This document shows, in pieces, positions 16,254 to 46,050 of a DNA stretch of 64,000 bases. The notes beneath the pieces are model-generated. The model did not search any database. It had not been told where the DNA came from and was given only the letters and a program-made list of their open reading frames with translations. Source of the DNA: Flavobacterium limnosediminis JC2902 (GTDB lineage: Bacteria > Bacteroidota > Bacteroidia > Flavobacteriales > Flavobacteriaceae); the NCBI RefSeq assembly GCF_000498535.1, contig NZ_AVGG01000019.1:186001-250000 (forward strand). Direction: 5' to 3'. A program made the position numbers and the translations under genes. Position 1 is the first letter of the stretch. Every line of letters starts with the position of its first letter.

Positions 16254-16258
16254 TTTTG
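16251..16258 (+). promoter_or_regulatory. -7 box overlapping the recF stop codon
   Basis: TAATTTTG exactly matches TAnnTTTG, begins with the recF TAA stop and lies 21 bases before the chosen ATG of the thioredoxin-fusion gene. No -33 TTTG is seen at 19 bases. Confidence 0.45.
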
Positions 16259-16279
16259 CATAATAAATACCACAGTAAA

Positions 16280-16981
16280 ATGAAAACACTAAAAATTTTA
16301 GGAATACTTACAATCGCTTTATTTATCAGCAACTGCAGCAAAGGTCAGAATATGGAGACTGTTTCTGTCAGTGATTTCGAGTCGAAATTAAAAGCTACGG
16401 AAAATGCGCAATTGCTCGATGTAAGAACAACCGGTGAATATACACAAGGCCATTTGGACAATGCCAAAAACATCGACTGGAACGGAGACTCCTTTGAAAC
16501 CGAAGTCCAAAAACTGGACAAATCAAAACCGGTTTTCGTTTACTGTTTAGTTGGTGGTAGAAGCAATAAAGCAGCAATAAAACTTACAAAAATGGGATTC
16601 AAAACCGTTTACAACATGGACGGCGGTTATATGAAATGGAGCGAAGCACATCCAAATACAGAAAAGAAAGCCGACTCCGGAATGAACAAAACCGATTATG
16701 AAAAACTGATCGCTTCGGATAAAGTGGTCGTAATCGATTTTTATGCAGAATGGTGCGGTCCTTGTAAAAAAATGGGGCCTTATCTGGCTAAAATGGAAAA
16801 AGAATACGAAGGCAAAGCCAAAATAGTTCGCGTGGATGCCGACAAAAACAAAGCTCTTTTTAACGGATTGGGCTATCAGGAACTTCCTGTAGTTATCGTT
16901 TTTAAAGACGGAAAAGAAGTTTGGAAGAAAAACGGATTTGTATCGGAAGCCGAATTAAAAGCGCAACTTCCAAAAAAATAA
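16280..16981 (+). CDS. Rhodanese-thioredoxin fusion lipoprotein
   Basis: A 233-residue two-domain protein. After a signal sequence with a plausible lipobox (FISNC, Cys19) comes a rhodanese domain (about residues 28-123) with LLDVRTTGEYTQGHL and active-site loop VYCLVGGRS (Cys89). A thioredoxin domain (about 137-233) follows, with AEWCGPCKKM (Cys159 and Cys162) and the cis-proline in YQELPVVIVF. Both active sites look intact. The likely place is the periplasmic face of the inner or outer membrane, with a role in sulfur transfer or thiol redox. I chose the ATG at 16280; an upstream in-frame TTG adds eight codons that overlap the promoter region. Confidence 0.85.
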   Translation: MKTLKILGILTIALFISNCSKGQNMETVSVSDFESKLKATENAQLLDVRTTGEYTQGHLDNAKNIDWNGDSFETEVQKLDKSKPVFVYCLVGGRSNKAAIKLTKMGFKTVYNMDGGYMKWSEAHPNTEKKADSGMNKTDYEKLIASDKVVVIDFYAEWCGPCKKMGPYLAKMEKEYEGKAKIVRVDADKNKALFNGLGYQELPVVIVFKDGKEVWKKNGFVSEAELKAQLPKK

Positions 16982-39052: not shown

Positions 39053-39076
39053 TAAAAAAACCGCCTTTCGACGGTT
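39053..39076 (-). terminator. Terminator of the efflux operon
   Basis: On the minus strand AACCGTC pairs with GGCGGTT (one G-T pair) around a GAAA tetraloop, followed by seven T. It lies 11 bases after the DUF2892 stop. Confidence 0.8.
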
Positions 39077-39086
39077 ATTTTCTGAT

Positions 39087-39275
39087 TTAATCCTGAATTT
39101 TAAAAACTTTGCGGAGAATATCTTCCATCAGACACCATTGAGTGAACGACGACTGAAGGAGATTCAATGCTACAAATCCTGTGAACCACAACCAATTCTG
39201 ATTGATATAAACAGCCAACAACACACTGATAAGTATAAATGTCCCTGCTATGGCTCTGATAATTCTGTTTATCAT
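39087..39275 (-). CDS. DUF2892 (YgaP-type) inner-membrane protein
   Basis: A 62-residue protein with two hydrophobic helices: IIRAIAGTFILISVLLAVYI (about residues 4-23) and WLWFTGFVALNLLQSSFTQW (about 28-47), then WCLMEDILRKVFKI. The turn WCLMEDILRK matches the YgaP transmembrane domain (DUF2892), where a Cys-Pro often follows; here only one Cys is present. In other bacteria the domain is attached to rhodaneses or found alone near redox and metal genes. It is the last gene of the efflux operon, 2 bases after the PII-like gene. Function unknown. Confidence 0.75.
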   Translation of the reverse strand: MINRIIRAIAGTFILISVLLAVYINQNWLWFTGFVALNLLQSSFTQWCLMEDILRKVFKIQD

Positions 39276-39277
39276 AA

Positions 39278-39583
39278 TTATATAATTTTATCTAAGTTAA
39301 CTACTACGGCATGAATCGCATTTTTGGTGGGCTGCTCCTCATTGAACGAACCGGCATGTTGAAGAAACCCTTCAACTTTTGATTCTTCGGTAAAAACATG
39401 AAACAGGACCGATTCACATTCGCTTTTATCATTGGCAAACCAATTATCTTTTACGGACAGACCGGAACAATCTTTAAATCCGTTAACTTCCTGATAGGTA
39501 TAACTGTGGATTTCAGCTTCCTTCAAAAACAATTTGATGTTGTCTTCAAAAGCCTTTACGGCGGTTATCATCATCATTTTCAT
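39278..39583 (-). CDS. Small PII/DUF3240-like protein in an RND operon
   Basis: A 101-residue protein that I do not firmly recognise. Its predicted pattern is strand (MMMITAVKAF), helix (EDNIKLFLKEAEI), strand (HSYTYQEVNGFKD), a loop with WFANDKSECESVL, strand (FHVFTEE), helix (KVEGFLQHAGSF) and strand (AIHAVVVNLDKI). That is a beta-alpha-beta repeat like PII, CutA and DUF3240 proteins. DUF3240 genes lie next to metal RND pumps in Proteobacteria, and this gene lies next to an RND gene. It has Cys39 and Cys56. A role in sensing metal or tuning the pump is inference. Several Met codons near the start leave it uncertain by a few residues. Confidence 0.6.
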   Translation of the reverse strand: MKMMMITAVKAFEDNIKLFLKEAEIHSYTYQEVNGFKDCSGLSVKDNWFANDKSECESVLFHVFTEESKVEGFLQHAGSFNEEQPTKNAIHAVVVNLDKII

Positions 39584-39679
39584 ATATGTATAATTTATTT
39601 TTCAGTGGTCATATATGTTATCGCTTTATTTTCGTAGGTGTATGCTTGCGCAAACTTCTTGTTAATGGCGATTTCATCG

Positions 39680-42600
39680 TTATTCGTATTTGTGTTTTTC
39701 AGTTATGTAATAAATCAGCGGCACTACAATCAGTGTTAATAATGTGGATACGATAGCACCTGCCACCAGTGAAATCGCCAACCCTTGGAAAATCGGGTCA
39801 AACAAGATGATGGAAGCTCCGATTACCACAGCACCTGTCGTCAGTAAAATGGGTGTGGTTCTTACCGCTCCGGCTTCAATGATAGCCTGCTTTAACGGCG
39901 CACCTTCCTTGAGTCGGATTTCGATAAAATCGATGAGCAACACCGAGTTCCGCACCATAACTCCCGCCAAAGCAATCATTCCGATAAAGGATGTTGCGGT
40001 GAAGAAAGCACCTAACAACCAGTGGCCCAATACAATTCCGATTAACGATAACGGAATGGCCATCATCATGACAATCGGCGTTTTGAAATTCTGGAACCAG
40101 CCCACAATCAGCATGTAAATCACTATAATCACGATTAAAAATGCCGCTCCCAAATCACGGAAGACTTCCAAAGTAATCTGCCATTCACCATCCCATTTCA
40201 CGGTGAAATCGCTTTCATCCGAAGGTTGTTCCATGTACAGTTCGTTCACTTTATAGCCTTTCGGCAACTTCATTTGCTGCAATTTCTCATTCATCCCCAA
40301 AATCGCATACACCGGACTTTCCAATACACCCGCCATATCAGCAGTTACATACACCACACGTTTTTGGTCTTTACGGTAAATCGTTTTTTTCAGTGTTTCG
40401 TTTTTTACTTTTACCAGATCGCTCACCGGAATCATAGTCCCTTGCGCCGATTTGATTTTAATGTTCTGAATATCCTGCAGACTCGTTTTCTCCTTATCAT
40501 CCAAAGCCAATACGATTCCGATATTGTCGTTCGAGTTTTCATCATACAATCGGGAAACCGGATATTCTTTCATGATTGTGGTTAACGTGGCTACCACCTG
40601 CTGAGGCGCTACACCGTACAACATGGCTTTTTCTTTGTCGACTTCCAATTTGTATTCGGTTTGATTGTCTTCGGTCATCCAATCCACATCAACGATATCC
40701 GAAGTCGTTTCCAGTATGGTTTTTACCTGATTCGCCACTTCAATCTGCTCCTCATAATTCGGTCCGTAAATCTCGGCTACCAAAGTCGACAATACCGGTG
40801 GTCCCGGCGGCACTTCAATCACTTTCACATTAGCGCCGTATTTTTTGGCAATCTTCTGAATTTCCGGACGCACTGCTTTCGCGATGTCGTGACTCTGTTC
40901 GCTTCGGTCTTCCTTGTGCAGTAAATTCACCTGAATATCGGCCATATTGCTTCCGCCACGCATGTCGTAATGACGCACCAAACCATTGAAGGTAATGGGC
41001 GCAGAGGTTCCCACATAATTCTGGTAACTCACCACTTCCGGACGTTGGGAAAGGTATTGCGCAATTTCTTTTGTAACCGCCGCAGTGCGCTCCAGCGTAG
41101 TTCCTTCCGGCATATCGATTACCACCTGAAATTCGTTTTTGTTATCAAAAGGCAGCATTTTTACAGCTACCGATTTGGTAAAGAACATCAACACCGAACC
41201 CAATAACAGGACAATCGTAATTCCGAACATAATCAAACGCTTTTTGGAACTTTCCAAAAACGGACGCTCAATTTTATTGTAGATTTTATAAATCCAACTC
41301 GTTTCCAAACCTTGCTCCTCTTTGTGTTTTTGCTCATCTTTTTCCTGAAGCAAATGATACCCCAAATAAGGCGTCACCGTTAAGGCTACGAACAAGGACA
41401 AAATCATCGCAATGGAAGCACCAATAGGCATCGGACTCATATACGGCCCCATCATTCCCGATACGAAAGCCATCGGTAAAATAGCCGCAATAACCGTAAA
41501 TGTTGCCAGAATAGTAGGGTTTCCGACTTCATTGATCGCATAAATCGCGGCCTGCTTGAACGGGAGTCGCTTCATTTTAAAGTGACGGTGCATGTTTTCG
41601 GCGATGATAATACTGTCATCCACCACAATTCCCACCACGAACACCAGGGCAAAAAGGGTGATTCGGTTTAGCGTGTAGCCTAATAAATAATAACTGAAAA
41701 GTGTCAGCGCAAACGTTAACGGTACGGAGAAGAAAACCACCAGTCCGCCGCGCCATCCCATGGCAAACATTACCAGAAGCGTTACGGCAATAATAGCTAC
41801 ACCCAAGTGCAACAACAACTCGCCTACTTTATGCGACGCGGTTTCTCCGTAGTTACGGGTCACTTCCACATGAACGTCACTTGGAATCAATGTTTTCTTT
41901 AATGCTTCTACTTTGGTGATGATTTTCTCAGAGATTTTCATCGCATCGGCACCTTTCACTTTGGCTACCGAAATCGTTACCGCGGGATATTCTGAAGTAT
42001 TTTTCGCTCGCGCCTCATTTCCGGTTCCGTATCCGAAAGACACATAACTTTTTGGCGATGAGGGTCCGTCCTGAACGGCTGCCACCTGTTTTAAATACAC
42101 CGGCATGTTTTTGTTTACACCTACAACCAGATTCTCCACATCTTCATCCGACGTTAAAAAATTCCCTGTAGTCAACAAATACTCCTGGTCTTTGCTTACA
42201 AAACTTCCGGATTGTGATTGTTGGTTGTTGGCCTGAATCATCTGTACTACCGAAAGGGCATCGATTCCGTTTTCAGCTAACTTATCTTTGTCCAAAACCA
42301 CTTTCAGTTCGCGGTTTCTTCCTCCGATTTTATTGGTAATGGCTACGTCCTTTACTTTTTCGATTTCATTGGTCAACTCACCGGCAATCTGGCGTAACTC
42401 GTAGTCATCGTATTTTTCACTCCACAACGTCAGTCCCAACATCGGAACATCGTCTATGGAACGGGTTTTCACCATCGGTTGCATCACGCCCTGAGGCATG
42501 TTCATAGCATTTTTATTCAATTCGTCGTACAATTTCACATACGAACGTTCGATGTCTTCGCCCACATAAAACTGAACAATCAACATCGCCTGACCGTTCA

Positions 42601-42868
42601 TGGCCATACTGTGTACGTGCTCTACCCCTTTGATATTGGAAATCACTTTCTCCAGAGGTTTTACCACACGGCTTTCCACTTCGGCAGGGCTTGCTCCCGG
42701 ATAACCCACCATTACGTCGGCCATCGGAACATTAATTTGCGGTTCTTCTTCCCTCGGAATTAAGAACGAGCTGTATACGCCTATCATCATCAAAGCCACC
42801 ATCAACAAAATGGTTAATTTCGAGTTGATAAAGAAATTGGCTATTTTTCCTGAAATACCTTCTTGCAT
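39680..42868 (-). CDS. RND efflux pump, inner-membrane permease
   Basis: A 1062-residue trimeric RND transporter of the AcrB/HAE-like group. The N-terminal helix is at about residues 13-33; the porter motif GYPGASPAEVESRVVKPLE follows near residue 54. TM4 has VVGIVVDDSIIIAENMHRH with the double Asp of proton-driven HAE pumps (CusA/CzcA-type heavy-metal pumps usually keep a single Asp there). The second half repeats the fold, ending in ALAGVMVRNSVLLIDF and TTGAVVIGASIILFDP. So drug-type export is favoured by this motif, while the neighbours hint at metals. It pumps from the periplasm/inner membrane through the adaptor and TolC protein encoded upstream. Confidence 0.93.
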   Translation of the reverse strand: MQEGISGKIANFFINSKLTILLMVALMMIGVYSSFLIPREEEPQINVPMADVMVGYPGASPAEVESRVVKPLEKVISNIKGVEHVHSMAMNGQAMLIVQFYVGEDIERSYVKLYDELNKNAMNMPQGVMQPMVKTRSIDDVPMLGLTLWSEKYDDYELRQIAGELTNEIEKVKDVAITNKIGGRNRELKVVLDKDKLAENGIDALSVVQMIQANNQQSQSGSFVSKDQEYLLTTGNFLTSDEDVENLVVGVNKNMPVYLKQVAAVQDGPSSPKSYVSFGYGTGNEARAKNTSEYPAVTISVAKVKGADAMKISEKIITKVEALKKTLIPSDVHVEVTRNYGETASHKVGELLLHLGVAIIAVTLLVMFAMGWRGGLVVFFSVPLTFALTLFSYYLLGYTLNRITLFALVFVVGIVVDDSIIIAENMHRHFKMKRLPFKQAAIYAINEVGNPTILATFTVIAAILPMAFVSGMMGPYMSPMPIGASIAMILSLFVALTVTPYLGYHLLQEKDEQKHKEEQGLETSWIYKIYNKIERPFLESSKKRLIMFGITIVLLLGSVLMFFTKSVAVKMLPFDNKNEFQVVIDMPEGTTLERTAAVTKEIAQYLSQRPEVVSYQNYVGTSAPITFNGLVRHYDMRGGSNMADIQVNLLHKEDRSEQSHDIAKAVRPEIQKIAKKYGANVKVIEVPPGPPVLSTLVAEIYGPNYEEQIEVANQVKTILETTSDIVDVDWMTEDNQTEYKLEVDKEKAMLYGVAPQQVVATLTTIMKEYPVSRLYDENSNDNIGIVLALDDKEKTSLQDIQNIKIKSAQGTMIPVSDLVKVKNETLKKTIYRKDQKRVVYVTADMAGVLESPVYAILGMNEKLQQMKLPKGYKVNELYMEQPSDESDFTVKWDGEWQITLEVFRDLGAAFLIVIIVIYMLIVGWFQNFKTPIVMMMAIPLSLIGIVLGHWLLGAFFTATSFIGMIALAGVMVRNSVLLIDFIEIRLKEGAPLKQAIIEAGAVRTTPILLTTGAVVIGASIILFDPIFQGLAISLVAGAIVSTLLTLIVVPLIYYITEKHKYE

Positions 42869-42914
42869 AATTTCTTTTGTTTAAAGTTTACAGTTAACGG
42901 TTAACGGTTTACAG

Positions 42915-44000
42915 TTACTGAACACTGATTTTCGCGCCATTAACCAATTTCCCTTCGGCTTCAATCACATAACTTTCGGAAGCGTTTAAGCCTGAAAGCA
43001 CTTCCACTTGATTTCCGAACGATTTACCGGTTTTAATCCAACGCAATAACGCAGTGTTATTGGATCCGACCACATAAATTCCGGTTAACTGACCTTGTTT
43101 CACCAAAGCGCTTTCGGGTACTAAAACCACATCGCTTTCGTTTGTTTTAATCGTTTTTTCAACAGGAAAATGTATGTTGACAAACATTCCGGATAAGGTA
43201 GCCGCATCAGTTTTATCTAAATTCACTTTCACTAAATATTGTCCGCCTGTGTTTTTGGCTGATAAACTGATTTCCGACACATTCCCGGTCAGTTCTTTGT
43301 TTGAGGATTTCACCAGTACTTTCACCGGCATTCCGTTTTTGATGGAAGTGATGTCCGATTCAGAAACCATCGCGGTTACCTGAAGACGTCCCGAACCTTC
43401 GATGCTCACCAGCGGCATACCCGGATTCGCCATATCGCCTTCTTTCACAAATGTATTGGTCACAACACCCGAAAAAGGAGCGGTTATGTTCGAATAGGAA
43501 AACTGGGCCAGTACTTCATTTCGCATTTGTCTTGCGGCTTCCAGTCCGGCTTTTGCCATTTCGTAACGCGCGGTCATATCGTCCAGTTCTTTTTGCGACG
43601 CACTTTGCTGACTGTACAGGTTTACGAAACGATCATAATCTTTCTTCGCATTTTTATAAGCGGCTTCTGCCTGAATAATGGATGCGTCCACCTGTGCTTT
43701 TCTTGCCTGTAAATCGGTACTGCTCACTGCTACCAGAAGTTGTCCGGCTTTTACATTCTGACCAACTTTTACGTTTACTTTTGTCACATACCCCATCATT
43801 CGGGTACTTAAGTTGGCACTGTTTTCGGCTTCAATTTTTCCGCTTGCGGTTACAAACGGGCTTCCCGAATCACCGGAAGGCGTGCTCACTTTTACGGAAA
43901 CTGTCGGTTGAACAACTGCTTCCTGTTTTTTATCTCCGGAACAATTCGCCAAAAAAACAGCGGTTCCGATTATCATTAAAGATTTACTGATTCTATTCAT
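42915..44000 (-). CDS. RND periplasmic adaptor (membrane-fusion) lipoprotein
   Basis: A 361-residue membrane-fusion protein that bridges the RND pump and the TolC channel. The lipobox FLANCSGD places the lipid Cys near residue 20. Then come the first beta strand, the biotinyl/lipoyl-like hairpin (MGYVTKVNVKVGQNVKAGQLLVAV), an alpha-hairpin rich in Ala/Lys (about 95-145), the second lipoyl half (FSYSNITAPFSGVVTNTFVKEGD) and a beta-barrel domain with ALVKQGQLTGIYVV. It follows the TolC gene by 10 bases and precedes the permease gene by 46. Confidence 0.93.
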   Translation of the reverse strand: MNRISKSLMIIGTAVFLANCSGDKKQEAVVQPTVSVKVSTPSGDSGSPFVTASGKIEAENSANLSTRMMGYVTKVNVKVGQNVKAGQLLVAVSSTDLQARKAQVDASIIQAEAAYKNAKKDYDRFVNLYSQQSASQKELDDMTARYEMAKAGLEAARQMRNEVLAQFSYSNITAPFSGVVTNTFVKEGDMANPGMPLVSIEGSGRLQVTAMVSESDITSIKNGMPVKVLVKSSNKELTGNVSEISLSAKNTGGQYLVKVNLDKTDAATLSGMFVNIHFPVEKTIKTNESDVVLVPESALVKQGQLTGIYVVGSNNTALLRWIKTGKSFGNQVEVLSGLNASESYVIEAEGKLVNGAKISVQ

Positions 44001-44010
44001 GGTAGTTGAT

Positions 44011-45324
44011 TTATTGTGTTAGAAATTGTTGGTATTGTTGTGTGAAATTGTATTCGAAAACCGCTTGCAGATACTCCAGTTCTTTTTGGGCCACTTGGGT
44101 TTCCGATAACAAAACATCGGTCGTTTTTTCAAGTCCTTGCGTGAATCGGTTTTTACGGATTCTTTGCGCTTCCTGCGATTGTTCGAACGCTAATCGGGAA
44201 AGGTTTACTTTATTTTCAGCGTCCAGCAACTGACGGTTGGTTTTGTTCAGTTCCAACTGACTTTGCGCTTTGTACTGTTTCACATCCAATTCGGATTTCT
44301 GGAAATCGGCTTTTACCTTTTGAGATTTTCCGATGGTTTTATAACCGTCAAACAACGACCAGGAAAGCTGTGCTCCCAGTACATAACCGCTGGCTCCCAT
44401 TCCGAAAAGTTGCGTATCATACAATTCATACGAACCAAACGCATTCAGACGCGGAAGAAAACTCATTTTTCCGGATTGCATCATTTTGCGATAGGCTTCA
44501 CTGGATTTGTTCATCGCCTGAAGGTCTTTACGGTTATCGGACAATGTCGCCGTTAATGAAGTCACCGCAATAGCATTTTCCAGTGCTTCCGTTGGCAGAT
44601 ATACTTTTCCGGTCATCTCTTCCTGAAGCAGAAACGCTAAATAATCGGAGGCATTCTGCACATTGCTTTTTGCGTATTGCAGTTGATTTTTCACATCGTT
44701 TACACGTACCTGAACAGACAATACATCGGTTTTTTGCAGATACCCCTGTTTGAAATTATTTTCTACATATTTCAGTGTCGCTTCGGAAGTTGTATTGGCT
44801 TTTTCCAGCACTTTTACTGCTTTGTACGCCAACTGCAATTGCATAAACGCTTTGTTCAGTTCCAGCTGAAGGTATTCTTTGGAGCGTTCGGTTTGCAACT
44901 GATAAGCTTCCATTTTGGCTTTGGCTGCCTGCCTTCCGTAGATTCCGTCGACATTGATTAAAGGCTGTACTACTTCAATTTTAGTTGCATAATTTTGAGT
45001 CACTTCCGGATTATTCAGCAACGTCGGGTTAAAATCGGATGCCGTTAAAATTTCCTGATTCAGTTTCGAACCGAAAGCCATTAACGGATTTGTAGTGGTT
45101 AATACAGTGTGCGAAGCCGAAATACTCGGTAAAAAGAGGGAATTCGATTGGCGGTAATCGGCCTGAGCGGATTTGAATTCCTGATTGGAAATTTTCAATT
45201 GGAGGTTGTTCTCGGAGGCTTTCTGCCACAAATCGTTTTTGGAAATTCGGAGTGTATCCTGAGCCATCATCGCTTGTGAGACAGCGAAAATTCCCAATAA
45301 TGACAGTTTGATTTTATTTTTCAT
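44011..45324 (-). CDS. TolC-family outer-membrane efflux protein
   Basis: A 437-residue outer-membrane channel of the TolC family. A signal peptide (about 1-21, ending AMMAQ) is followed by two repeats of long helices: LQLKISNQEFKSAQADYRQSN, then beta strands, then the second half QSQLELNKTNRQLLDAENKV. The terminal segment ending in ATDVLLSETQVAQKELEYLQ-like helices is typical. It is the first gene of the tolC-adaptor-permease-PII-DUF2892 unit. A TACATTTG promoter box lies 28 bases before the ATG, and the small Cys-rich gene upstream has its own terminator. Confidence 0.93.
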   Translation of the reverse strand: MKNKIKLSLLGIFAVSQAMMAQDTLRISKNDLWQKASENNLQLKISNQEFKSAQADYRQSNSLFLPSISASHTVLTTTNPLMAFGSKLNQEILTASDFNPTLLNNPEVTQNYATKIEVVQPLINVDGIYGRQAAKAKMEAYQLQTERSKEYLQLELNKAFMQLQLAYKAVKVLEKANTTSEATLKYVENNFKQGYLQKTDVLSVQVRVNDVKNQLQYAKSNVQNASDYLAFLLQEEMTGKVYLPTEALENAIAVTSLTATLSDNRKDLQAMNKSSEAYRKMMQSGKMSFLPRLNAFGSYELYDTQLFGMGASGYVLGAQLSWSLFDGYKTIGKSQKVKADFQKSELDVKQYKAQSQLELNKTNRQLLDAENKVNLSRLAFEQSQEAQRIRKNRFTQGLEKTTDVLLSETQVAQKELEYLQAVFEYNFTQQYQQFLTQ

Positions 45325-45351
45325 AACATTTACTTATTCCTGATTATGGAG

Positions 45352-45359
45352 CAAATGTA
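45352..45359 (-). promoter_or_regulatory. -7 box of the efflux operon
   Basis: On the minus strand TACATTTG is an exact TAnnTTTG, 28 bases before the TolC ATG. It lies downstream of the terminator of the Cys-rich gene, which argues for a separate transcript. No clear -33 box. Confidence 0.5.
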
Positions 45360-45408
45360 TGACGGGAAAAAAGTGTAGTCAGTAACAAGTGTTACATACA
45401 CCATAAAA

Positions 45409-45435
45409 CAAAAAACGCCTCGATTTCTCGGGGCG
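45409..45435 (-). terminator. Terminator of the 64-residue Cys-rich gene
   Basis: On the minus strand CGCCCCGA pairs with TCGAGGCG (one mismatch) around GAAA, followed by six T. Confidence 0.8.
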
Positions 45436-45457
45436 TCTAACTGATAATCTTAAAGAA

Positions 45458-45652
45458 TTATGCTTTCTTAGCAGCACAACAAGCTTTTTTCTCACCTGAA
45501 GCACATGCTTTCTTCTCTTCTTTAGAGCAAGCTTCTTTTTTTGTTGTAGTTGCTTCTTTTTTAGCTGGACCAGCTTGTTTTTTCTCTTGAGCAGTTACGT
45601 TCATTGATACTGTAAATAATGCTACTGCTAAAATTGCTACGATATTTTTCAT
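45458..45652 (-). CDS. Small exported Lys/Ala/Cys-rich protein
   Basis: A 64-residue protein with a signal peptide (residues 1-21, AILAVALFTVSMNVTAQ) and a mature part almost wholly of Lys, Ala, Glu, Thr, Gly and Cys. Cysteines are at 42, 50, 58 and 59 (KEACSKEE, KKACAS, KKACCAAKK). The mature part has no predicted fold. Four Cys with positive charge suggest metal or redox binding in the periplasm, like small copper/zinc-binding proteins, but no family is recognised. A separate terminator and a gap from the neighbour show it is its own transcript. Start is certain because it begins a signal peptide. Confidence 0.75.
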   Translation of the reverse strand: MKNIVAILAVALFTVSMNVTAQEKKQAGPAKKEATTTKKEACSKEEKKACASGEKKACCAAKKA

Positions 45653-45714
45653 AATGTTTTATTTTAAAATTTATTTGTTTGTTTTTTTATTTGAATTTGA
45701 TTGATGTTTCTGAA

Positions 45715-46050
45715 TTAAGAAGTCATTTCCGGCGGATGCCAGAATGTATTGTAATATTTGGGTATAAACGTTTTTTCGTAAATTAAATTTTCCTGCTTTT
45801 CAACTTCAAAAGTTACCGGAATAGAAAGGTTCTGAATCTGTTGCACAATAAACTGTCCCGCCGAAAAATTGATATTCAGCACACATTTTTCTTTCTGACA
45901 GCCATCCTGCATTTCATCGCCCCGGCAACAGCCGCTTTTTTCGACCACAGCCATGCAACTGTCTGAAACATGCGACTTTACAACACGAACTGTCTGCGCT
46001 CCTGTCAGAAGCACAAAGTAGCATGTTAGTATTGCTGTAAATAATTTCAT
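45715..46050 (-). CDS. Small exported Cys-rich protein (possibly HYC_CC_PP-like)
   Basis: A 111-residue secreted protein. A signal peptide ends near residue 19; the mature part has H27, C32, the pair C41-C42 (KSGCCRGDE), C51 (DGCQKEKC) and C56, with WHPPEM near the C-terminus. The order His-Cys, Cys-Cys, Pro-Pro recalls the small Bacteroidota family annotated HYC_CC_PP, but this is by memory and not tested. The cysteine spacing suits binding of a soft metal ion. A TATATTTG box ends five bases before the ATG, so the message would be nearly leaderless. It lies upstream of the 64-residue Cys-rich gene (62-base gap). Confidence 0.6.
   Translation of the reverse strand: MKLFTAILTCYFVLLTGAQTVRVVKSHVSDSCMAVVEKSGCCRGDEMQDGCQKEKCVLNINFSAGQFIVQQIQNLSIPVTFEVEKQENLIYEKTFIPKYYNTFWHPPEMTS

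Follow-up and report, generated by a model that had tools for sequence, protein, structure and literature searches.

The locus analyzed here raises the question of why an efflux pump should share its operon with a PII-like protein and a very small membrane protein. A stretch of 64,000 nucleotides of Flavobacterium limnosediminis JC2902 (contig NZ_AVGG01000019.1, positions 186,001 to 250,000, from a genome of 3.47 Mb), referred to below as the window, contains five minus-strand genes arranged as one unit (45324-39087). They encode a TolC-type outer-membrane factor, an adaptor, a permease of the resistance-nodulation-division (RND) type, a 101-residue PII-like protein (PII101) and a DUF2892 protein. 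An initial annotation had described a pump operon with two extra small genes, and all five named genes were found on the minus strand. The best overall explanation is that this unit is a sulfide-stress efflux operon, to which a probability of roughly 0.62 is assigned, since neighboring genes, a shared palindrome with its candidate regulator and a CstR-like repressor in Chlorobiaceae all point to sulfur. These data suggest that the operon serves in the defence against toxic sulfide rather than in ordinary drug or metal resistance. The genes and the putative control elements are located as follows (positions in the window):

44011-45324, minus strand: TolC-type outer-membrane factor, with which the operon opens (PF02321 OEP, 134 bits)
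42915-44000, minus strand: periplasmic adaptor, i.e. membrane fusion protein (TIGR01730 RND_mfp, 209 bits, cut-off 94.9)
39680-42868, minus strand: RND permease with a proton relay of the H+/drug (HAE) type, free of Cys (PF00873, 539 bits)
39278-39583, minus strand: PII101, 101 residues, predicted PII fold (score under the threshold of each curated PII-type family that was scanned)
39087-39275, minus strand: DUF2892 / YgaP-like_TM protein, 62 residues (PF11127, 49.1 bits, cut-off 25.3)
45382-45395, minus strand: operator-like palindrome GTAACACTTGTTAC, located 57 bp ahead of the start codon of tolC and the only such site in the window
45352-45359, minus strand: TACATTTG, a match to TAnnTTTG, 22 bp after the palindrome

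The association of the small genes with the pump was followed across genomes. Among 199 genomes of the family, PII101 relatives were detected in 69 and a permease orthologue in 73. Pump and PII occurred together in 68 genomes, the pump alone in five (G033, G053, G068, G076 and G174), PII alone in one (G048, where the gene lies at a contig end) and neither in 125 (Fisher p 5e-46, computed as if the genomes were independent, which they are not). The best 40 of the 68 family matches beyond the window's own were fetched, with G003 and G062 added later. The RND gene was located directly upstream of PII in all 40 fetched family loci (three being contig-cut pieces), DUF2892 followed PII in 39 and TolC preceded the RND gene in 37, while the other three end at a contig edge. 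The PII101 profile matched 103 of 395 genomes of the phylum, from which 40 places in 39 genomes were picked by hand. A permease of the same clade lay directly upstream at 37 of these places, and the remaining ones were a remnant (L130), a different RND paired with a PG0541-like protein (L136) and a false match (L137). A set anchored on the pump itself was taken from the best 80 loci of a genome scan, of which 79 were usable as one ends at the permease. PII was encoded within 1 kb of the pump in 67 of the 79 (gap of -25 to 225 bp) and DUF2892 within 2 kb in 65; these loci span Flavobacterium, Lutibacter, Polaribacter, Dysgonomonas, Labilibaculum, Chlorobaculum thiosulfatiphilum and bins of KSB1 and Calditrichota. 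Judged by gene content and order, pump, PII and YgaP-like protein form one conserved cassette, and the proposed link of the 101-residue protein to the pump holds across genomes.

Two genomes contain unusual PII copies. In G003, a PII101 relative (L151:5811-6578, minus strand) is fused in frame to an extension of approximately 150 residues that looks acyltransferase-like by eye. A short RND piece lies upstream of it, a second pump copy without PII is present on another contig (L152), and the fusion could be an assembly artefact (the genome is 80% complete). G208 carries two PII copies with equal scores, one beside a full pump and the other (L130) after an RND remnant of 60 residues (L130, L131).

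What controls the cassette was approached through the DNA in front of tolC, using 250 bp of upstream sequence and the first 30 nucleotides of the gene at 154 loci. The palindrome GTAACN4GTTAC was present in 80 of these regions, with 0.12 expected from letter shuffles. When 5-bp inverted repeats were enumerated without bias, the same sequence came first (78 of 154 loci, runner-up 13), and 78 of 151 distinct loci retained it once three repeated loci were removed. In total, 139 sites were counted in 2.80 Mb of target loci versus a single one in 0.73 Mb of controls. The distinct sites numbered 143 (149 before repeats were removed; the set takes in 33 overlapping Cys-protein loci), and only four of them fell inside open reading frames (ORFs) by our own ORF rule. 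Genes starting beside the sites encode TolC (87), SQR-like proteins (10), persulfide dioxygenase (PDO, 9), cytochrome c (8) and YeeE (4), more rarely TauE, CydA and Cys111 (3 each), thioredoxin and Crp (1 each), and eight sites have no adjoining gene start. At 78 of 135 distinct sites, the sequence TAnnTTTG, which we take to be the Bacteroidota promoter element, begins exactly 22 bp past the palindrome, and a tolerance of 1 bp raises the number to 86, compared with a background of 0.0005 per position. The geometry of palindrome and presumed promoter is therefore fixed at most sites, and the site is shared with genes labelled as sulfide genes.

Nine exact palindromes occur in the source genome of the window, five inside ORFs and four between genes. 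The latter precede the pump operon, a Crp/Fnr gene followed by TauE, a PDO gene (this site overlaps the final 4 bases of tauE) and a row of DUF2892, thioredoxin and DUF6132-like ORFs. Every one of the four stands ahead of sulfur- or thiol-related genes or of the Cys-motif regulator for them. The 22-bp spacing is seen at two of the four, the pump operon and the Crp/Fnr gene. The last of the four sites (L329, C3:196449) stands before a second DUF2892-like gene, which is followed by the thioredoxin and DUF6132-like genes (all three named by eye); this group probably belongs to the same regulon. Elsewhere (L036, L048, L288 and L317), the palindrome was noticed by eye before peroxiredoxin-like and rhodanese-like ORFs, which would widen the regulon. 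No palindrome was found in 11 fetched loci of the PG0541 family, six of which score above the PG0541 cut-off.

A candidate for the protein that recognizes this operator is the Crp/Fnr regulator. The copy in the source genome carries the Cys motif DTCAMTLTCC (general form DTCAMTxxCC), and its best match among solved Crp/Fnr proteins is 3dv8 (E 2.7e-17). The regulator of L156 matches PF00027 (cyclic nucleotide-binding type) as well as PF13545 and PF00325 (Crp helix-turn-helix), which places it in the Crp/Fnr family. The Cys motif was recognized in 20 of the 28 Crp-labelled ORFs in the loci (L248 of the 20 repeats L104), and a palindrome was present in the locus for 18 of these 20 versus four of the eight others. 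Class II activators bind with their center approximately 42 bp upstream of the transcription start. As the palindrome center is placed at approximately this position, we infer an activator. The Cys-motif protein may sense reactive sulfur and, bound approximately 42 bp upstream of the transcription start, would activate the operon.

The genes surrounding the cassette were counted in 80 of 89 target loci. Omitted were the false match L137, the PG0541-type locus L136 and the remnant L130, together with the contig fragments L151, L153 and L154 and three loci under 10 kb (L033, L039 and L053). Neighbors were clustered, representatives were scanned for domains, and the classes were compared with 40 control regions, which were target stretches shifted within the same contigs and chosen by hand. 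None of the twelve representatives scanned is a metal gene, except for the CsoR type. PDO-like proteins combining metallo-beta-lactamase (MBL) and rhodanese parts (MBL domain and two rhodanese stretches in the representative) were encoded near 23 loci, SQR-like proteins near 16, YeeE and DUF6691 near 10 each, TauE near nine, CsoR-type and Crp/Fnr regulators near 10 each and cytochrome bd near nine, and each of these classes was absent from all 40 controls. Any of six sulfur classes (PDO-like, SQR-like, YeeE, DUF6691, TauE and CsoR-type) was present near 38 of the 80 loci versus none of the 40 controls (p 3.6e-9). Without the ten Chlorobiaceae-type loci and the weak MBL matches, 28 of 70 loci remained, compared with 0 of 39 controls carried over from the full count. 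Thioredoxin (8/80 versus 3/40) and UspA (9/80 versus 4/40) were not enriched near the operon. A thioredoxin/rhodanese-type ORF of 241 residues is encoded in the window at 16256-16981 on the plus strand. Taking operator and neighbors together, the operon very probably belongs to a sulfide or reactive-sulfur regulon.

A second line of evidence is provided by family f18, which is treated as Chlorobiaceae on the basis of the close resemblance, judged by eye, of its PII and regulator sequences to those of the Chlorobiaceae loci L323 and L324. Its genes are ordered CsoR-type regulator, TolC, short adaptor ORF, RND, PII and MBL protein. The regulator was present at 10 of the 11 f18 places fetched, with the remnant L130 left out. 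CstR-type repressors possess two Cys residues spaced as in CsoR and lack the intervening His ligand, which in CsoR is located at offset 25; on reaction with persulfides they release their DNA. The paired Cys residues are present in all ten f18 regulators, the second one at offset 29, and offset 25 is occupied by Asn in nine and by Ser in one. By this sequence rule, a putative CstR-like repressor precedes tolC, and it would do a job equivalent to that of the Crp/Fnr protein. Two unrelated regulators, one of the Crp/Fnr type and one CstR-like, both point to reactive sulfur, which strengthens the sulfur interpretation. PII is present in 67 of the 86 genomes of this family. The MBL protein shows NCBIfam similarity to glyoxalase-II and sulfur-dioxygenase, both below the cut-off. 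Upstream of the RND gene in L125-L138, L323 and L324, the ORF for the adaptor comprises just about 136-172 residues or was undetected, which suggests that the membrane fusion protein is truncated or divergent there.

Several observations weigh against assigning the operon to sulfide stress. No listed sulfur gene lies in the fetched stretch of 42 of the 80 loci, and the labels SQR-like and PDO-like are below the curated equivalog cut-offs (65.6 of 525 for the SQR representative). In the window, the representatives match a single ORF, the thioredoxin/rhodanese-type one at a distance of 22 kb from the pump genes, and the genome carries its PDO gene on a different contig. The p values are too small, as the loci share ancestry and were treated as independent. 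The palindrome is missing from 73 of the 151 distinct tolC upstream regions, 36 of the 143 sites adjoin an unlabelled ORF, and one of the four intergenic sites in the source genome is divergent with a glutamate-dehydrogenase-like ORF opposite (by eye). The nine exact palindromes of this genome compare with 10 for a reversed control pattern, so that the information lies in where the sites are placed, not in their number. The Cys-motif regulator has other duties, as its relatives are present in 160 of the 199 family genomes and the pump in 73. Detectable PII is lacking from 12 of the 79 pump loci. Finally, an operon of Azospira suillum PS (Dsui_3440-3443) that combines RND genes with SQR is a precedent in favor, being highly expressed during H2S oxidation, yet its deletion left the H2S oxidation rate unchanged, and the authors suggest the export of metal sulfide (PMC5358917, in excerpt).

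The nature of the exported substrate was considered from the permease. The fourth transmembrane segment (TM4) contains the motif VDDSIIIAEN with both residues of the HAE-type Asp pair, and in an alignment of 75 permeases, the window's included, D417 and R973 were kept in all and D418 in 70, in accordance with the drug/proton type read from the motif in the initial annotation. The closest solved structure is 6vej chain A (263 bits, annotated as a probable RND transporter), which we take to be TriC, and the other close solved relatives are mostly multidrug RNDs. This similarity and the HAE-type relay would be expected from a general TriC-type multidrug pump that resides in sulfide islands, where its induction by sulfide would clear secondary toxicants such as quinones and membrane-damaging products. 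We regard such a general pump as unlikely. The operator, which the pump has in common with sulfide-oxidation genes and which keeps a constant spacing to the promoter, and the presence of PII in 67 of 86 Chlorobiaceae-type genomes both suggest a substrate linked to sulfur. The permease of the window and 75 of 81 orthologues are free of Cys, compared with five of 13 other RNDs in the loci fetched; as a functional hint this depletion is suggestive only.

Metals were the other candidates, and the initial annotation had raised the possibility of a metal- or thiol-responsive export system. For metal efflux, PII101 would be a cytoplasmic sensor resembling CutA or PII-NG, the pump would export copper, zinc or cobalt, and the Cys-rich exported proteins that adjoin the operon (described below) would act as periplasmic buffers. 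The cobalt-upregulated czcABC operon of Geobacter, which starts with a PII-NG gene (PMC7726332, in excerpt), and the metal sulfide export proposed for Azospira (PMC5358917, in excerpt) lend this idea some plausibility, as do the presence of the Cys-rich exported proteins beside the operon and some Cys64 relatives located near a heavy-metal-associated-type ORF (by eye). The sequences themselves argue otherwise. The permease missed the cut-off of the heavy-metal RND model TIGR00914 (CusA/CzcA; 262 bits versus 701) and keeps the HAE Asp pair, the alignment of 41 PII101 sequences shows no conservation of Cys39 or Cys56, and the best-kept His (His91) is a His in 14 of 41 sequences. Metal sensing by PII101 was rejected because of these Cys and His patterns. 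Moreover, the neighbors that exceed the controls are sulfur genes, with the CsoR type as the only metal-related one of twelve representatives, and this CsoR-type regulator is without the metal-ligand His in ten of ten cases. Metal efflux is accordingly held to be quite improbable. The thiol half of the earlier proposal is supported by the operator, the regulator and the sulfur genes nearby, and the metal half is not supported.

With respect to the sulfide-stress operon, it is tentatively proposed, at a little less than even odds, that the exported substrate is a sulfur species. Candidate cargoes are polysulfide, zero-valent sulfur, persulfides and sulfide complexes, which the pump would collect from the inner membrane or the periplasm and release outside the cell. 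More broadly, it would export a toxicant either derived from sulfide or provoked by it.

The contribution of the two small proteins was addressed by structure prediction and family comparison. An AlphaFold2 model of PII101 as a single chain, built from 41 sequences, reached a predicted local distance difference test score (pLDDT) of 84 and matched PII structures in Foldseek with E values down to 4.8e-6. In VIA-align, the best ten matches were all of the PII type (Z 10.8-11.6, 75-88 residues aligned). Individual comparisons include 3dfe (Z 11.6, root-mean-square deviation (rmsd) 2.2, 77 aligned), CPII 5ds7 (Z 11.2, rmsd 2.8, 82 aligned), SbtB 6wue (Z 11.1, rmsd 2.4, 75 aligned) and GlnK 2gnk (Z 10.3, rmsd 2.3, 83 aligned), and the identity to the fold matches listed is 11-21%. 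CutA is absent from the VIA-align matches listed, an absence that carries no weight. The model predicts that PII101 has the beta-alpha-beta-beta-alpha-beta fold of PII proteins, in line with the PII-like character suggested for it at the outset; a fold unlike PII/CutA was not obtained. The accompanying label DUF3240 was dropped, since PF11582 gave no match up to E 1.

At the sequence level PII101 is remote from the characterized families. It missed the cut-offs of Pfam P-II (PF00543, 14.9 bits versus 25) and of NCBIfam PG0541_fam (NF045581, 23.8 bits versus 45). The PG0541 model matched 24 of the 41 aligned members at E <= 0.01 (best E 2.4e-5) and nine of 35 in a broader PII101 set, and the PII101 family profile aligned with PG0541-type proteins in hhalign (97.9%, E 5.7e-13). 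Against PDB sequences, PII matches of the PII101 profile were weak (GlnK at E 0.39), and a narrower profile retrieved no PII chain at E <= 1. In 35 sequences drawn from the whole phylum (alignment A2), the invariant residues are limited to M1, K2, G35, W48 and S58, and in the weak alignment to GlnK Gly35 pairs with the Gly of E-V-K-G-F. Canonical GlnB and GlnK proteins contain a glycine-rich nucleotide-binding B-loop near residues 82-90; inspection of alignment A2 by eye revealed no B-loop Gly in residues 82-90 of the window's protein. The DUF2892 membrane protein was confirmed by PF11127, now named YgaP-like_TM, which scored above the gathering threshold. Gly11, Asn38 and Gln41 are invariant in 129 DUF2892 sequences and Cys48 is present in 128, the remaining one having a gap. 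No second Pfam domain was found in the 62-residue protein by a Pfam scan.

Does PII act on the pump? In the conserved cassette PII directly follows the RND gene, at the short distances seen in the 67 loci. Related PII genes above the PG0541 cut-off lie directly 3' of TolC, adaptor and RND at six of six loci. The permeases linked to PG0541 form a separate RND clade (364-401 bits versus more than 1400 on the window-type profile), so that within the phylum no fewer than two RND clades have PII-type genes beside them, and DUF2892 was not detected at these six loci. Both arrangements argue against the rather unlikely case that PII101 does not touch the pump and instead controls, for example, the YgaP-like protein, a sulfurtransferase or a regulator. 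The possibility that a single PII protein acts on more than one target (PMC10710835, in excerpt) is in favor of this alternative, as is the retention of DUF2892 in eight of the 12 pump loci without detected PII. The five permease-only genomes likewise show no PII downstream of the permease, and four of them keep DUF2892. As some pumps occur without it, PII is considered accessory. An action of PII on the pump itself is given even odds.

Proteins of the PII superfamily form homotrimers with ligand sites between the subunits, and they are known to plug transporters that are trimeric or to lock them. RND permeases are likewise trimeric. This combination suggests that the pump is perhaps switched by energy status at the protein level, beyond transcription. 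A PII trimer would dock at the cytoplasmic face of the RND trimer, comparable to GlnK on AmtB and SbtB on SbtA, and could gate the pump in response to the energy of the cell or another small ligand. Were this true, the pump would be the first RND among PII-controlled transporters. To our knowledge, no exporter is known for the extracellular sulfur globules of green sulfur bacteria, and the cassette is a candidate sulfur exporter in these organisms. The most far-reaching version, in which PII gates the RND, the pump exports polysulfide or zero-valent sulfur, the cassette with the CstR-like regulator is a candidate for the export step behind the extracellular globules of green sulfur bacteria and a new Crp/Fnr sulfur sensor drives the system in Bacteroidota, is doubtful when all of its parts are taken together. 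The regulon suggests a testable function for a pump found in 73 of 199 family genomes, and the analysis names a candidate sensor of reactive sulfur together with its operator.

The remaining features of the locus are two hairpins and two genes for Cys-rich proteins:

45413-45438, minus strand: terminator-like hairpin with a U-run between Cys64 and tolC (-13.7 kcal/mol, z -3.81)
39059-39076, minus strand: terminator-like hairpin after DUF2892, at the end of the operon (-11.3 kcal/mol, z -3.71)
45458-45652, minus strand: Cys64, exported Lys/Cys-rich protein of 64 residues with 4 Cys, a neighbor outside the operon
45715-46050, minus strand: Cys111, exported Cys-rich protein of 111 residues with 6 Cys, a neighbor outside the operon

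The Cys-rich exported pair was indeed found upstream on the same strand, as first reported, and both N-termini resemble signal peptides by eye. A shared transcription unit with the pump is unlikely; the two genes are probably transcribed separately because of the hairpin with a U-run between Cys64 and tolC. Neither protein has a meaningful Pfam or NCBIfam match (for Cys64, no Pfam match and no NCBIfam model near its cut-off). Genomes of the genus with relatives, the own genome included, number 12 of 101 for Cys111 and 38 of 101 for Cys64. In 40 fetched family loci phmmer gave no match to either, and with this result and the hairpin in between, the idea that they are conserved members of the operon, co-occurring with the pump, was abandoned. 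In 12 of 23 other genomes, relatives of the Cys-rich proteins adjoin a PDO, SQR-like or YeeE/DUF6691 gene (loci of approximately 3 kb, with no size-matched control), and the palindrome lies upstream of Cys111-type genes at three distinct places. Cys64 and Cys111 look like neighbors from the sulfur regulon, not like pump subunits. The related genome G589 (L188) displays the window's neighbors without the five-gene operon or Cys111, in the order MBOAT, Cys64, lipoprotein and Ffh, which indicates that the operon as a whole was acquired or lost and that Cys64 was retained.

A comparison with known systems places the cassette next to several described arrangements. No description of a PII-RND-DUF2892 operon or of its sulfur regulon was found in literature searches, none of which targeted the Crp/Fnr regulator or the palindrome. 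The PG0541 family also has a PII-related gene directly 3' of TolC, adaptor and RND, but its permease belongs to the other clade and the window's protein is under the PG0541 cut-off. In Geobacter sulfurreducens (GSU2134-2137), a PII-NG gene is part of the cobalt-upregulated czcABC operon, so that, as in the window, a PII-like gene and an RND pump share one operon (PMC7726332, in excerpt). There the pump is CzcABC, the protein has a PF00543 domain and the PII gene comes first, whereas the window combines an HAE-type RND with a PII gene after it and a protein under the PF00543 cut-off. SbtB-SbtA and GlnK-AmtB are pairs of a trimeric PII-fold regulator with a trimeric membrane transporter (PMC10710835, in excerpt); SbtB and GlnK are among the best fold matches of PII101, and the pairing proposed for the window differs in that the partner would be an RND. 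The PII targets named in the available part of that review do not include any RND pump (PMC10710835). The Azospira operon, likened to the window by description only, has no PII protein named in the excerpt at hand (PMC5358917). CstR is a CsoR-like repressor encoded beside sulfide-detoxification genes, and the targets named in the excerpt include no RND pump (PMC10318464). The Chlorobiaceae-type loci share with CstR regulons the gene of a CsoR-like regulator, there preceding the tolC of the pump, and the family of the window has a Crp/Fnr-type site instead. The attachment of a PII-like gene to an RND pump is thus of a kind already known, and the PII-RND-DUF2892 cassette with its sulfur regulon represents a new variant of it.

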